Part shown: piece by piece, positions 11,409-59,280 of the stretch
Layout of the letters: the number at the start of each line of letters is the position of its first letter
How positions within the stretch are numbered: the first letter of the stretch is position 1
NCBI GenBank assembly: GCA_019637265.1
Contig: JAHBVY010000001.1
Coordinates: forward strand, 806,001 to 870,000
Origin: Polyangiaceae bacterium
GTDB lineage: Bacteria > Myxococcota_A > Polyangia > Polyangiales > Polyangiaceae
Length of the DNA: 64,000 bases
Reading direction: 5' to 3'
Notes under the pieces: model-generated
The model's database searches: none
Told to the model about the DNA's origin: nothing
What the model saw: only the letters and a program-made list of their open reading frames with translations
Program-made: the position numbers and the translations under genes

Positions 11409-11585
11409 CGCGGCGCGAGCCTACCCGACGCCTCGCGCGGTGACTACCCGTTCGAGGCCTCACGGCGTGGTGCCGTCCAACCCACTCCCTCACCCTCGTC
11501 CAGAGAACGGGGGTTCGCCCCCACTGCCTGTCGCCCCACGTCACCGCGAACCCACCGAGCGGCCTCCAACTGCCAGAAACGAAAC

Positions 11586-14707: not shown

Positions 14708-14988
14708 TCGCCAAGCATACAGGCGGATGGGCCTCGCACCAATCGAGGGCGCGCCCGGGCGCAGAACGTGAGCGTCTGTCTCAGCGCGCTGCACGCCGTA
14801 TCCTGGCGGCTCCTCGGATTGGGGTTGGACGGCACCTCGCCGCTCAGCGACGTGAGGGCGGCACACGAATGTTTCGTCCCAGATCACGAGAGCCACCGAT
14901 CGGCTGCGTCAGCCACCCAGCGCCGCTCATGAGCGGCGCCAGGCGCCCAGCGCCGCTCGTGAGCGGCGTCGGCGCTCAGCGTCTCCAG
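14708..14988. other. Intergenic region downstream of tRNA-Val with two GC palindromes
   Basis: Two near-identical dyads follow the tRNA on the minus strand: a perfect 20-bp palindrome at 14920-14939 (arms GCGCCGCTCA) and a copy at 14950-14969 with one arm base changed. They may help end the tRNA transcript, though no U-tract follows. A TTGGACGGCACC dispersed repeat lies at about 14823-14835, upstream of the DUF4114 gene. No gene is supported. Confidence 0.6.
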
Positions 14989-21746: not shown

Positions 21747-22110
21747 GGGAGGATGCGCGCTCTGCCATGCTGGCACCCTCGGGTCAACTGAAACCCGCCC
21801 CGCATGAGGCGGCGCCAGCTCACTTCACGACGCGACGCGGCGGGGGCGATCGAGCCTCGGCGCGCTCGCCGATCGTCCCCTTCACAGCGGCGTTCGAGCG
21901 TCTTTTTCGATCGGGGGGTTGGACGGGTAGTCGCTGACCCGCGGCGCGCGGAGCGCCGCCTGGTGACGCGAGCGGTGAAGAGCGGGCGCCACGTGGGGCG
22001 CGCTGCTTCGGAGCCCCGAATAAAGTTGGCCCCCTCTCGGAGGCAGCCGAGAGGGGGCCCGCGTCCCGGGAGGGACCGAAAGGGTGGAGCGACGACGCGT
22101 CGCTCAGGGC
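21747..22110. other. Region upstream of tig
   Basis: About 360 bp without a gene. Holds a copy of the dispersed GGGGGGTTGGACGG repeat (about 21912-21925) and the strong hairpin at 22028-22059. The tig promoter should lie here; no clear consensus boxes were seen. Confidence 0.55.
22028..22059 (-). terminator. Strong stem-loop after the small acidic-protein gene
   Basis: A perfect 13-bp stem GGCCCCCTCTCGG (22028-22040) / CCGAGAGGGGGCC (22047-22059) with a 6-base loop, followed on the minus strand by AACTTTATT. It begins about 50 bp past the stop at 22111. Confidence 0.78.
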
Positions 22111-28173: not shown

Positions 28174-28470
28174 CGCTGGGAGGCCAAGCACGGCAGGGGA
28201 CGGTGGAGCGAGCCATCCGCGGTGGCGCGAAGCCCCCGGAGTTCCAGGAGGGGGGGTTGGACGGCACCGCGCCGCACCGAAGCCGGGTGGGGTATAGCGC
28301 AGGCGCCGCCCTCGAACAGGGGAGAAACCGAGCCGCGCCGCTCGGGACAGGGGCTCGAGATCCCGCGCGCGACCCGCGGCCGTCTGCTGGCGATCGCCCG
28401 CCACACTGGCCCAGATCCGCGGAGAAGCGAGCAGGCCCCAACACGGCGCCGCGTGCTAACTTCCGCGGCC

Positions 28471-53893: not shown

Positions 53894-54052
53894 GAGTTCA
53901 CTCCCTCCTAGTACATGCTGCGGCCATTTGAGAGATGCCGTTCATGCGCTGCGCGCCGCTTGCATCACGGTCCTCGACCTCATGGGCGTCTCCGTGCTGC
54001 CTTGAAGGAGCTTTTTTGTAGAGCCGCGAGGCGTTGAAGAGCTGGTTGGACG
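53894..54052 (+). repeat. Diverged copy of the kinase-flanking repeat
   Basis: Shares in the same order the blocks CACTCCCTCCTA, TCACGGTCCTCGACCTCA, TTGAAG-like and GAAGAGC-GGTTGGACGG with the repeats at 57008-57174 and 58846-59012. The middle is largely changed. Orientation equals that of the 58846 copy. Fills the 319-bp gap between the hydroxylase and the metzincin gene. Confidence 0.65.
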
Positions 54053-54095
54053 GGTAGTCACCCTTGCACCCTGTCAGCACGCCCGACTCGCCGCG

Positions 54096-55589: not shown

Positions 55590-55847
55590 GCGAGCGTTTT
55601 ACCGGCGCCTCGACGCGCTGACGAGGCGAACCGCTCCCACGGCAAAGCTACGCCAGAAGCGCAACGCCCACCCTCTCTGCAGATCTCGGGGATTGGGGGT
55701 TTGGCGAGGTGATGCGCGCGCTGCCCAGCCGCGCGCGGAGGACCGCCACGGGTGCCACCCTGTCGCGGTGCCGTCCAACCCCCTAAACCCCACGACTTGC
55801 CAGCTCGCCGAGCTGCACATGGGTGTCGCCCACGAGAGGAGCTAGGG

Positions 55848-56053: not shown

Positions 56054-56902
56054 TCAGAACGCTCCGTACCAGCTCGCGACCCCACCGCCCGGAGCACCGC
56101 GCAGATCGAAGCCGAACGACGCCTCGGCGGGGCTCGCTGGCGCGCGCTCGGGACCTGCCGTGAGCCACAGCACCGTGGCCACCCCGAACGACACCAGCCC
56201 CACCCCGAGCCCGATGTCGCCGATCAAGCGCGAGCGCTCGATCGAGTCGCGATCGGCCGGATCGCAGCGGGGCGCACAGCCCGACGACTCGACGTCGCTC
56301 CGCTTCCCCTCGGCGCTGAGCCAACCGAACGTCGCCACGCCAAACCCCACGACCCCGATCCCCGCGAACACCCACGGCAACACGCTCGGCTCCACGGCGT
56401 CCGACGTCGACACGCTGAGCGAGTCCTCCGGATCGGGCGCTGGGCTGAAATCCACGCTGACCACGCGGTTCTTCTGGCCCTCCACCACCGACACCTCGAG
56501 CTGCTTCTCGTCACCGTCAGCCGTCTTGACGGTCAGCGTGCGCCGCCCCGGGTTCACCCGCACGGCGCGGCCGGCCCGCGCGTCCTCGCTCACGTCCTCC
56601 CCGTCGACGCGCGCCTCGATCTTGCTCAGCTCGGCGCCCTTCACCTCGAACACCACCGTGGGCAGGCTGCTGTCCACCTCGGAGAGCCACTGCACGCAGT
56701 CCTTCTGGAGCGCCGTGAGGCAGCTCGCGCTGGCGCACGTGAGCAGCTCGGCGCGCGCCTTGAGCAGATCTCCCTCTTGCCTCAGCACCTGGGCCTGCTC
56801 GTAGCTCTCCACGCAGGCCTCCGCGCTGGCGTCTGCCTGCGCGGCGCCCGCGCTCATCAGCAGGGCCGCAGCGGCCCACACACCCAAGCCAAGCTTCTTC
56901 AC
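56054..56902 (-). CDS. Exported PEGA-like protein with C-terminal membrane helices
   Basis: 282 residues from GTG 56902. A signal peptide ends near GAAQADA (about 23). A short TPR-like helical part (ACVESYEQAQVLRQEGDLLKARAELLTC) precedes a PEGA-like beta domain (LSKIEARVDGEDV...VNPGRRTLTVKT). Two hydrophobic helices (WVFAGIGVVGFGVATFGWL and IGLGVGLVSFGVATVLWLT) flank a Cys-containing loop. The same architecture occurs at the right edge of the window (63230). Probably an envelope protein that senses or binds the cell wall; function unknown. Confidence 0.78.
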   Translation of the reverse strand: MKKLGLGVWAAAALLMSAGAAQADASAEACVESYEQAQVLRQEGDLLKARAELLTCASASCLTALQKDCVQWLSEVDSSLPTVVFEVKGAELSKIEARVDGEDVSEDARAGRAVRVNPGRRTLTVKTADGDEKQLEVSVVEGQKNRVVSVDFSPAPDPEDSLSVSTSDAVEPSVLPWVFAGIGVVGFGVATFGWLSAEGKRSDVESSGCAPRCDPADRDSIERSRLIGDIGLGVGLVSFGVATVLWLTAGPERAPASPAEASFGFDLRGAPGGGVASWYGAF

Positions 56903-57007: not shown

Positions 57008-57174
57008 GCGGTGCCGTCCAACCGGCTCTTCAACACTTCCCGCTTCGGGGAGGTGCTCTTCAAGGCCGCGTGGATCCTTCGGTGAGGTCGAGGACCGTGA
57101 CCACAGCGGTAGCCACCGCAAAACAAAGTCCATTCGCGACTCCCATGGGAGATTAGGAGGGAGTGCACCCCCAA
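57008..57174 (-). repeat. Kinase-flanking inverted repeat, left copy
   Basis: About 167 bp and about 95% identical to the reverse complement of 58846-59012. Contains three potential hairpins: CTCCCATGGGAG, a GCGGT/ACCGC stem and a TCCCG/CGGGA stem. The outer end is GGTGCCGTCCAACC, the dispersed solo repeat. Confidence 0.92.
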
Positions 57175-57201
57175 CCCCACCTGCGGCTGGTCAGATAGGC
57201 G

Positions 57202-58746
57202 CTACCTGGCGCACTCGGGCTTCACTCGCTTGATGCCCTTCGAGTCGACCCAGAACGGCGATGAGCAGTCCACGGCGGGCTTGGCGGCTGGCTGAGGCGC
57301 CGGAGTCGGCTCGGCGCGCGGCTCGCTGCGGGGCTCACTTCGAGGCCGCGGCTCACTTCGAGGCGCAGGCCGGGGCTCGGGGGCGCGCGGCGTAGCCTGA
57401 GCCGCCACGGGCTCGTCAGCGGCCGGTACTAGCTGGGAACCAGCGTCCTCGGCTGGCCTGGGCTCCTCGGCTCGCGCCTCCGCGCGCTCCTGAGAGCCAG
57501 TGGGCGCCGGGGCGCTCGCCGGCGCTTCGGTGGTGGCGGGCGCGCTCGCGGCGGACTCCTGACTGACGTCGGGCGCCGCGCTCGACTGCGAGAACCAGCG
57601 CGCCCCGAAGGCCAAGCCGACCAGGCACACCCCCAGCACGCCCGCCGCGATCCACAGCACCCCGCGGCGCCGCTTGGGCTCGGGCGGGGACACCACCACC
57701 CCCGCGCTGGTCCCCGTCGTGGTGGGGCTGAGCGCCCCGACCACCGTGATGCTGCTCACCTCGCCGGGGGCAGCCTGCTCCATCCGCCGCACCTTCTCCG
57801 CGCGCTCGGCGAGCGGCACGGCGGCGACGGTGGCCACCCAATCGCCCACCTGGTGGTTGGACATGGGGCGCACGGCCGCTTCCAACTCCTGCGCCATCTC
57901 CCGGGCGCTCGAGTAGCGGGCCGCCGGATCCTTCGCCAAGGCGCGCTCCACGATGGCGTCGAAGGGCGCCAGCGCCGGATCCTTGTCGCTCGGCCTCGGC
58001 ACCGCGCCTTCGAGCACCTGGTTCAGCTGAGCGATCTCGCTGTCCCCGTTGATGAGCCGCTCCCCGACGAGCGCCTCGTACAGCACCACCCCCGCCGCGT
58101 AGAGATCCGCGCGAGCGGTCACCTCTTCACCCCGCGCCTGCTCCGGCGCCATGTACCGGAGCTTGCCCTTCAGCTGGCCATCGCGCGTCGACTGGACGCG
58201 CCCAGAGCCCTTGGCGACGCCGAAATCGAGCACCCGCGCGATGCCGTCGACCCCCACCATGATGTTCTGCGGCGAGACGTCGCGGTGCACGATGTTGAGC
58301 AGATCGCCCTGCTCGTCCTTCGCCTCGTGCGCGGCCGAGAGGCCATAGAGCGCGCCGATCATCACCGCGGCGATCAGCTCGGGCGGCGTGACGTACCCCG
58401 CCTTGCGGGCAGCGCGCAGCAGCTTGCTGAGCGCCTCCCCCTCGACGTAGTCGAGCACCAGGCACACCTCTTCCCCCCGCTGCACCACGTCGAGCGTCGG
58501 CACCACGTTCGGGTGCCGCACCCGCGCCGCGAGGCGCGCCTCATCGAGGAACATCTCGATGAACTCCGGCTCACCCACCAGGTGCCGGTGCACCCGCTTG
58601 ATGGCGACCGGCTTCGTGAACCCACCTCGACTGACGAGGCGCCCGAGCTGAACCGTGGCCATGCCGCCCACGGCGATCTCCTCGAACAGCTCGTAACGGC
58701 CGTCCAAGCGCTCACGTCCGGGACTCGAGGGTTGGGAGTACGACAT
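57202..58746 (-). CDS. Membrane-anchored Ser/Thr protein kinase
   Basis: 514 residues. Kinase domain (about 18-290): Gly loop AVGGMATV, VAIK Lys50, catalytic HRDVSPQN (Asp156; the SPQN variant is common in myxobacteria), DFG 174-176 and APEQ. A juxtamembrane stretch, a single helix (about 362-382, GVLWIAAGVLGVCLVGLAF), then a periplasmic tail rich in Pro, Ala, Arg and Glu with a SEPRPR repeat, ending with CSSPFWVDSKGIKRVKPEC, a conserved-looking two-Cys motif. It probably senses an envelope cue. The gene lies between two about 167-bp inverted repeats (27 and 99 bp away). Confidence 0.92.
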   Translation of the reverse strand: MSYSQPSSPGRERLDGRYELFEEIAVGGMATVQLGRLVSRGGFTKPVAIKRVHRHLVGEPEFIEMFLDEARLAARVRHPNVVPTLDVVQRGEEVCLVLDYVEGEALSKLLRAARKAGYVTPPELIAAVMIGALYGLSAAHEAKDEQGDLLNIVHRDVSPQNIMVGVDGIARVLDFGVAKGSGRVQSTRDGQLKGKLRYMAPEQARGEEVTARADLYAAGVVLYEALVGERLINGDSEIAQLNQVLEGAVPRPSDKDPALAPFDAIVERALAKDPAARYSSAREMAQELEAAVRPMSNHQVGDWVATVAAVPLAERAEKVRRMEQAAPGEVSSITVVGALSPTTTGTSAGVVVSPPEPKRRRGVLWIAAGVLGVCLVGLAFGARWFSQSSAAPDVSQESAASAPATTEAPASAPAPTGSQERAEARAEEPRPAEDAGSQLVPAADEPVAAQATPRAPEPRPAPRSEPRPRSEPRSEPRAEPTPAPQPAAKPAVDCSSPFWVDSKGIKRVKPECAR

Positions 58747-59280
58747 CCGTTCAGAGAGAGCCTAGCCGGCGACGTCAGCCGGAGGATAGAGAAAGCCTAG
58801 CACGGCGCATCACAAACCTCCTCGCTCCCTGCATCGCGATCGGGTTTGGGGGTGCACTCCCTCCTAATCTCCCATGGGAGTCGCGAATGGACCTTGTTTT
58901 TGCGGTGGCTACCGCTGTGGTCACGGTCCTCGACCTCACCAGAGGATCCACGCGGCTTTGAAGAGCACCTCCCGAAGCGGGAGGTTTGAAGAGCCGGTTG
59001 GACGGCACCGCACTGGCTCGCCGCTGGTGCTCATAGGAGCCACCCGAGAGCGGGCCCACCACGGCGCGCTCGTACGCCATGGCTCACTGCGTCACGCTCC
59101 TGCACGGTGCGCTCGGCCGCTCGAGGAGGACAAGGCGACGACGCGGTGCGCGAGCGGCTCTCGGGTGACGCGCTGGCCGCTGCATTCCCCGCGCGGCGAA
59201 TCCGCTTGTGCTCCGAAGCCCGTGAGGGAAGATGAGGGGGTCGTTCTGGCCTTCCTTCCACCCCACCCAAGCCATCCCTT
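58747..59280. other. Intergenic region between kinase and lipoprotein genes
   Basis: 534 bp holding the right inverted repeat (58846-59012). The remaining 268 bp before the lipoprotein gene show no supportable gene, and no Shine-Dalgarno sequence or clear promoter was seen. Confidence 0.55.
58846..59012 (+). repeat. Kinase-flanking inverted repeat, right copy
   Basis: Reverse-complement partner of 57008-57174. Carries CTCCCATGGGAG, GCGGTGGCTACCGC and a perfect 8-bp stem ACCTCCCG/CGGGAGGT, and ends GGTTGGACGGCACCGC. The stem in the left copy is kept by a G-U pair despite base changes. Confidence 0.92.

Follow-up and report, generated by a model that had tools for sequence, protein, structure and literature searches.

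The Ser/Thr protein kinase gene of the window, by which is meant the whole 64,000-nucleotide stretch of DNA analysed here (G000:C1:806001-870000, 70% GC), lies between two inverted copies of a repeat of about 168 nucleotides that is lineage-specific, dispersed, intergenic and non-coding, and that is built as a body seated within a shorter base motif. The repeat probably spreads by copying guided by this motif, and the kinase gene is resident and accompanied by a conserved partner gene, which corrects the earlier reading of the locus. The genome measures 5.7 Mb in 21 contigs and is 98.5% complete; its gene content, together with the large genomes of the family, points to a host that is probably myxobacterium-like. 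The census of the repeat is based on searches of this genome and on an 864-kb sample of contig C1 (C1:1-400000 and C1:806001-1270000, that is loci L205-L244 and the window), which is 86% coding with genes called by a purpose-built small codon-usage caller. The family comparison comprises 60 family genomes, the own genome included and 59 others.

The preliminary description had reported inverted repeats of about 167 bp and about 95% identity around the kinase gene, and these are confirmed. The left copy extends over 57008-57178 on the plus strand and the right copy over 58842-59011 on the minus strand, with 95.2% identity across 168 aligned bases and a few single-base gaps; the two bodies share a gap-weighted identity of 0.937, or about 95% by BLAST. 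The copies differ in their tails, and their flanks are unrelated. The two are mutual nearest relatives at a distance of 1.8 kb and are in this respect an exception, since the nearest relative of most copies is found hundreds of kb away or on other contigs (one pair with 98.5% identity, for example, is 616 kb apart). Their proximity in both senses fits local copying or gene conversion, and the simplest reading of the kinase-side copies is a single body that passed from one F1 site to the other, 1.8 kb away, through either process. The features of the locus and the further motifs of the window are listed in Table 1.

Table 1. Repeat copies, their parts, solo motifs and neighbouring genes in the window (coordinates are positions within the window).
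Feature	Position	Strand	Remark
Solo F1 motif	11469..11483	+	
Solo F1 motif	14822..14836	-	
Solo F2 motif, GACTACCCGTCCAACCCCCCGATC	21909..21932	-	'empty' counterpart of third window copy
Solo F1 motif	28252..28270	-	
Third window copy: base motif F2 (GACTACCCGTCCAACC, 54044-54059) and body (53898-54043)	53898..54059	-	
Solo F1 motif	55765..55783	+	body-less; adjoins tRNA-Leu
Partner gene directly downstream of kinase	56054..56902	-	pair kept in relatives without the repeat
Base motif F1 (GCGGTGCCGTCCAACC), left copy	57008..57023	+	378 genomic copies at <=1 mismatch, most body-less
Body, left copy, 143 nt (GGCTCTTC...GGAGGGAGTGC)	57024..57166	+	inserted at AACC^CCC of base motif
Conserved hairpin P1, left body (AACACTTCCCGCTTCGGGGAGGTGCT)	57032..57057	+	
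Near-invariant core AGGTCGAGGACCGTGACC, left body	57085..57102	+	dyad GGTC-GAG-GACC
C-run and A/C-rich tail, left copy (ACCCCCAACCCCACC)	57167..57181	+	site-specific
Ser/Thr protein kinase, 514 aa	57202..58746	-	resident gene; Pkinase E=1.2e-32
C-run and A/C-rich tail, right copy (ACCCCCAAACCC)	58842..58853	-	
Body, right copy, 142 nt	58854..58995	-	nearest relative of left body
Near-invariant core AGGTCGAGGACCGTGACC, right body	58919..58936	-	
Hairpin P1, right body (AAACCTCCCGCTTCGGGAGGTGCT)	58964..58987	-	8-bp stem, sequence changed
Base motif F1, right copy	58996..59011	-	

In the own genome the repeat has about 40 matches at E<=1.3e-11, which puts the pair far beyond chance. With a profile made from 37 copies, about 65 are recovered in either orientation at a cut-off of at least 35 bits, and the mean pairwise identity among 56 copies is 0.68. 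The earlier MITE-like view is supported in so far as the repeat is transposon-like, small, without coding capacity and present many times in the genome. Close pairs of copies are in mild excess only, with about 6 seen within 4.2 kb where 2.8 are expected. The third copy in the window has its closest relative on another contig (C2:62749, 95%), and C1:948170-948619 holds three copies in tandem. L066 (C1:1935427) and L062 (C1:1936954) are direct copies separated by 1.5 kb; they are 96% identical and similar in both flanks, and are probably the result of a segmental tandem duplication that took in the repeat.

None of the full and solo copies of the first set overlaps a called gene, and 59 of the 60 F1 sites in the 864-kb sample are located between genes. 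The orientation of the motifs relative to the neighbouring genes is unbiased; a transcription terminator or other oriented signal was rejected on these grounds, and the role as a transcription boundary that had been considered for the repeat is likewise disfavoured. Dispersal is precise, as near-identical bodies have unrelated flanks: in 36 body pairs with at least 90% identity the flanks are 33% and 32% identical, compared to 33% and 30% in unrelated pairs. The same profile detects nothing above 25.4 bits in the 59 other family genomes, and the matches in relatives, at or below about 25 bits and hence at the background level of the own genome, were rejected as true copies. Viral and genome collections scanned with exact patterns returned, among the matches listed, only single chance motif matches in unrelated contexts; the matches listed for the genome collection may leave out near relatives of this genome. 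A search of Rfam with the repeat gave no credible match to a curated RNA family, and a search of the literature on such repeats in myxobacteria found nothing relevant.

The base motif F1 corresponds to the first 16 nucleotides of the repeat. This 16-mer occurs at 378 genomic sites with at most one mismatch, against about one site expected genome-wide from composition and none for the reversed control. The sites mostly stand alone, without a body, and continue with CCC and a short A/C-rich tail. The 15-mer GGTGCCGTCCAACCC, which selects body-less sites, is found 260 times here, not at all in the congener G001 and at zero to three sites per genome in the rest of the family. The end CCAACCCCC together with the tail is common to further intergenic families (the GCGCTGCCA-, GGCGCTACCA-, GACTACCCGTCCA- and GCGGGACCA- families and others), and GCCAAACCCCCAA alone has 211 sites here as opposed to 0-1 per genome in 58 relatives. 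Hairpins upstream of the tail motifs as a whole are just slightly stronger than in the control. In the 864-kb sample A/C-only runs of at least 12 nt that include CCCC are strongly enriched between genes (146 in the intergenic 14% of the sample versus 133 in coding DNA), and nearly all intergenic runs are preceded by a recurrent CCA-type motif. A further intergenic family, with about 12 members, has the palindrome GACGACAAACGGTAAACCGTTTGTCGTC, and some of these members lie inside an element of about 166 nt that begins with AGCGGCGATCAGTTCGCC (C1:329570-329851, C1:1157649-1157959).

Alignment of the junctions reveals how the two parts are combined. The body of about 143 nt (RGCTCTTCAA...GGAGGGAGTGM) begins directly after (A)ACC and stops directly before (A)CCCCC, the insertion point being exactly AACC^CCC, and bodies are present in at least four base-motif families. 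The motif that precedes the body is F1 in 41 of 57 copies, F2 in five, a GGGGGCG motif in five and mixed in the rest. The GGGGGCG family holds the bodies L126, L127, L129, L130 and L134, and two bodies of the mixed rest (L123, L124) sit in a family with a GACTG...hairpin. The 3' flank proper to F2, a C-run followed by GATC, is found after all five F2 bodies versus two of the 41 F1 bodies (p=1.5e-5). As F2 also occurs body-less and F2 bodies retain the F2 flank, the two states represent a single type of site, filled or empty, and exist side by side within one genome. The F2-carrying bodies are mutual relatives, and base and body may therefore travel partly together instead of reflecting repeated independent insertion. 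Within the tandem triple the bodies are joined with ...GTGCACC running directly into GGCTC..., identical to the usual junction.

Full-length copies show no excess of shared words across the insertions that would indicate a target-site duplication, and junction repeats are limited to ACC/AACC (CGAACC in one base family). Three copies that are truncated at the 3' side (L131, L132, L136) are each bracketed by a direct duplication of 51-59 nt, which consists of upstream sequence and motif. An apparent target duplication at L065 was rejected, as it is a REP array. The ends of the body are imperfectly inverted (GGTGCCGTCCAACC / GGTKCACTCCCTCC), with about 9-10 of 14 positions complementary.

The preliminary description assigned three potential hairpins to each repeat, of which only the first, P1, has support across the family. 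P1 has 15 cells changed on both sides compared to 6.9 +/- 1.9 in shuffles, none of 500 shuffles being as high, and folds with a z of about -1.2 relative to about 0 in control stretches. GGTC-GAG-GACC is almost invariant and therefore uninformative on pairing, and in the alignments GCGGT-AGCC-ACCGC and CTCCCATGGGAG are confined to the kinase-side pair; a broad RNA covariation across the body was accordingly rejected, with support for P1 only. The core AGGTCGASGACCGTGA is near-invariant, old copies included. P1 or the core could be needed for spreading, in protein binding or for structure, or could have a function. A conserved peptide was also rejected: one subfamily reads as an ORF, other copies contain frameshifts and have lost stops, and overall reading frames are not kept across copies because indels shift the frame. 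Several older bodies (L120, L125, L126, L127, L129, L130, L134) end in GAGGGAGTCGAACCCCC, the complement of a tRNA T-arm core (GGTTCGACTCCC), which may hint at an ancestor that was derived from a tRNA or targeted tRNAs. A search of the 864-kb sample for a tRNA from which this 3' end might originate (older copies end GAGTCGAACCCCC) found no matching tRNA.

The kinase had been viewed as the passenger of a 2-kb unit with MITE-like ends, and a comparison of the locus in relatives had been proposed; this comparison contradicts the idea. In the congener G001 the stop codon of the kinase gene overlaps the start of the orthologue of the 56054-56902 gene, and the repeat is absent there. The kinase-partner junction in the own genome is a 299-bp gap that contains the left copy. 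The comparison with G001 covers this downstream (left) junction, as the G001 contig ends before the upstream (right) one. At 21 further family loci, some of which may be paralogous pairs, a kinase of the same type is encoded on the same strand near the partner gene, and none of them has repeat motifs. The occurrence of the gene pair without the repeat in the congener and in the family means that the kinase is resident and not mobile cargo. The kinase and its downstream neighbour are thus shown to be an old, ancestral gene pair, with the left repeat between them. Nothing points to a function of the repeat for the host or the kinase.

The explanation that we consider probable is that of a lineage-specific, REP/MITE-like non-autonomous repeat spreading by motif-guided copying, where the copying itself is inferred from the junctions. 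It is proposed that the body would spread via copying guided by homology at the motif. Synthesis would stop with a 3' end ...CCAACC just before the C-run, which is a G-run on the template strand; the stopped 3' end would be extended on another motif copy that carries a body, and the extended strand would then rejoin its own locus at ACCCCC. Rejoining farther upstream would give rise to truncated copies with bracketing duplications of 51-59 nt. The model draws on the arrangement of the junctions, with the duplication seen in three truncated copies only, and it leaves unexplained the origin of the base motifs and the CCAACCCCC end with A/C tail that unrelated families share. More tentatively, there might be self-propagating intergenic repeats without a dedicated transposase or reverse transcriptase, for which CCAACC, C-run and A/C tail with their G-rich template would serve as a stall-and-switch site, so that sequences ending or inserted there are copied from locus to locus. 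If true, hundreds of sites in several unrelated families would have arisen through the replication and repair machinery of the cell itself.

The main rival to motif-guided copying, possible though unlikely, is a non-autonomous transposon of the MITE or IS200/IS605 type whose body is moved in trans by a transposase, lost or of a family not searched, that cuts after AACC, the base motifs being older elements with the same cleavage site. The small size, lack of coding capacity, hairpin near one end, precise and imperfectly inverted ends and dispersal of the repeat are in keeping with such an element, and a fragment of an IS110-family transposase is encoded at the end of a contig (C15:10-258, L275), where it is cut off; however, no motif is found near this fragment, and at no place in the own genome are the body ends set apart around a gene. 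The transposase searches covered the Y1 and IS110 families in a 21-contig assembly that may miss a mobile enzyme at a contig break, and the Y1 transposase/RAYT domain (PF01797) has no match in the own genome. Enzymes of the IS200/IS605 type use a short, fixed target and produce no long duplications, and the 51-59-nt duplications at truncated copies are atypical of them. Such duplications at one-sided truncations, as well as the variable A/C tails, speak for a retroposon, in which reverse transcription of a minus-strand-sense body RNA, starting at a nick after AACC, would yield 3'-truncated copies, long target duplications and an untemplated A/C tail. This is improbable, as the own genome contains no match to the reverse transcriptase domain (PF00078), body-less solo motifs carry A/C tails too, and full-length copies lack the duplication.

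Selection could also have kept the motif, with or without its body, as a functional site, which might act as an RNA regulator, bind protein, organise the chromosome or serve as an uptake signal. The end motif and the core are near-invariant while the remaining body diverges, one hairpin covaries and the copies number in the hundreds; yet the repeat is missing from all relatives examined, matches no Rfam family and has no preferred orientation relative to genes, which makes this reading quite improbable. The composite unit with the kinase as passenger is highly improbable. Its two copies are indeed inverted and mutually closest, but the kinase-partner overlap in G001 and the same pairing at 21 other loci occur without the repeat, tail and upstream flank are particular to each copy, and close pairs of copies are at about the level of chance.

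Of the known systems, MITEs and REPs come closest to the repeat. Bacterial MITEs such as ERIC, Correia/NEMIS and BOX/RUP/SPRITE are shorter than 500 bp, non-coding, intergenic, structured and lineage-specific and reach tens to hundreds of copies, and insertion of BOX, RUP and SPRITE elements into one another is known (PMC10969869). The repeat is like them in size, non-coding nature, intergenic location, copy number, secondary structure and lineage restriction. It differs in its weak terminal inverted repeats, in having no regular target duplication and no related autonomous element found, in not being AT-rich and in being almost always seated within a separate short repeat. With REPs and REPINs it shares a short intergenic motif in hundreds of copies in one genome (PMC3733652, PMC3116915), and the CGTC REPs in particular likewise lack a dedicated transposase, their mode of multiplication being an open question (PMC3733652). 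REPs are palindromes of 20-40 bp with a stem of 8-9 bp; the base motif does not have this form, lacks the GTAG tag and harbours a second element. By the REP criteria (PMC3733652), F1 has a CGTC string with neither an adjoining 8-9-bp stem nor GTAG. True GTAG-type REP palindromes are separately present in the 864 kb, GTAGGGGCGGGTTTCAAACCCGCCC in about 27 and GTAGGGGCAGGCCCCCGTGCCTGCCC in about 20 clustered copies, despite the lack of a Y1/RAYT.

An integron attC site, with RYYYAAC at one end and the complementary GTTRRRY at the other, is not apparent either: the repeat has GTCCAAC on its 5' side and GGGAGTGMACCCCC on its 3' side. PATEs, which derive from IS200/IS605 elements, have a hairpin near an end and a short fixed target and leave no target duplication. 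The repeat resembles them in its hairpin near an end, its short fixed target and its full-length copies without a clear target duplication, and departs from them in a genome without a Y1 transposase and in the long duplication at truncated copies. The intrastrand-triplex repeats of E. coli (TMECO; PMC4666352) are similar in being an over-represented intergenic motif with a G/C-run, no strand bias and no association with mobile elements, but are of other sequence and without an inserted body. Short intergenic repeats are widespread in bacteria, and how those that lack a transposase spread is an open question. A single genome with filled and empty sites, subfamilies both young and old and truncated copies that carry duplications, alongside examined relatives that have none, is a setting in which comparing strains could test the mode. 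Overall, the repeat is REP/MITE-like with a nested body-in-motif design.
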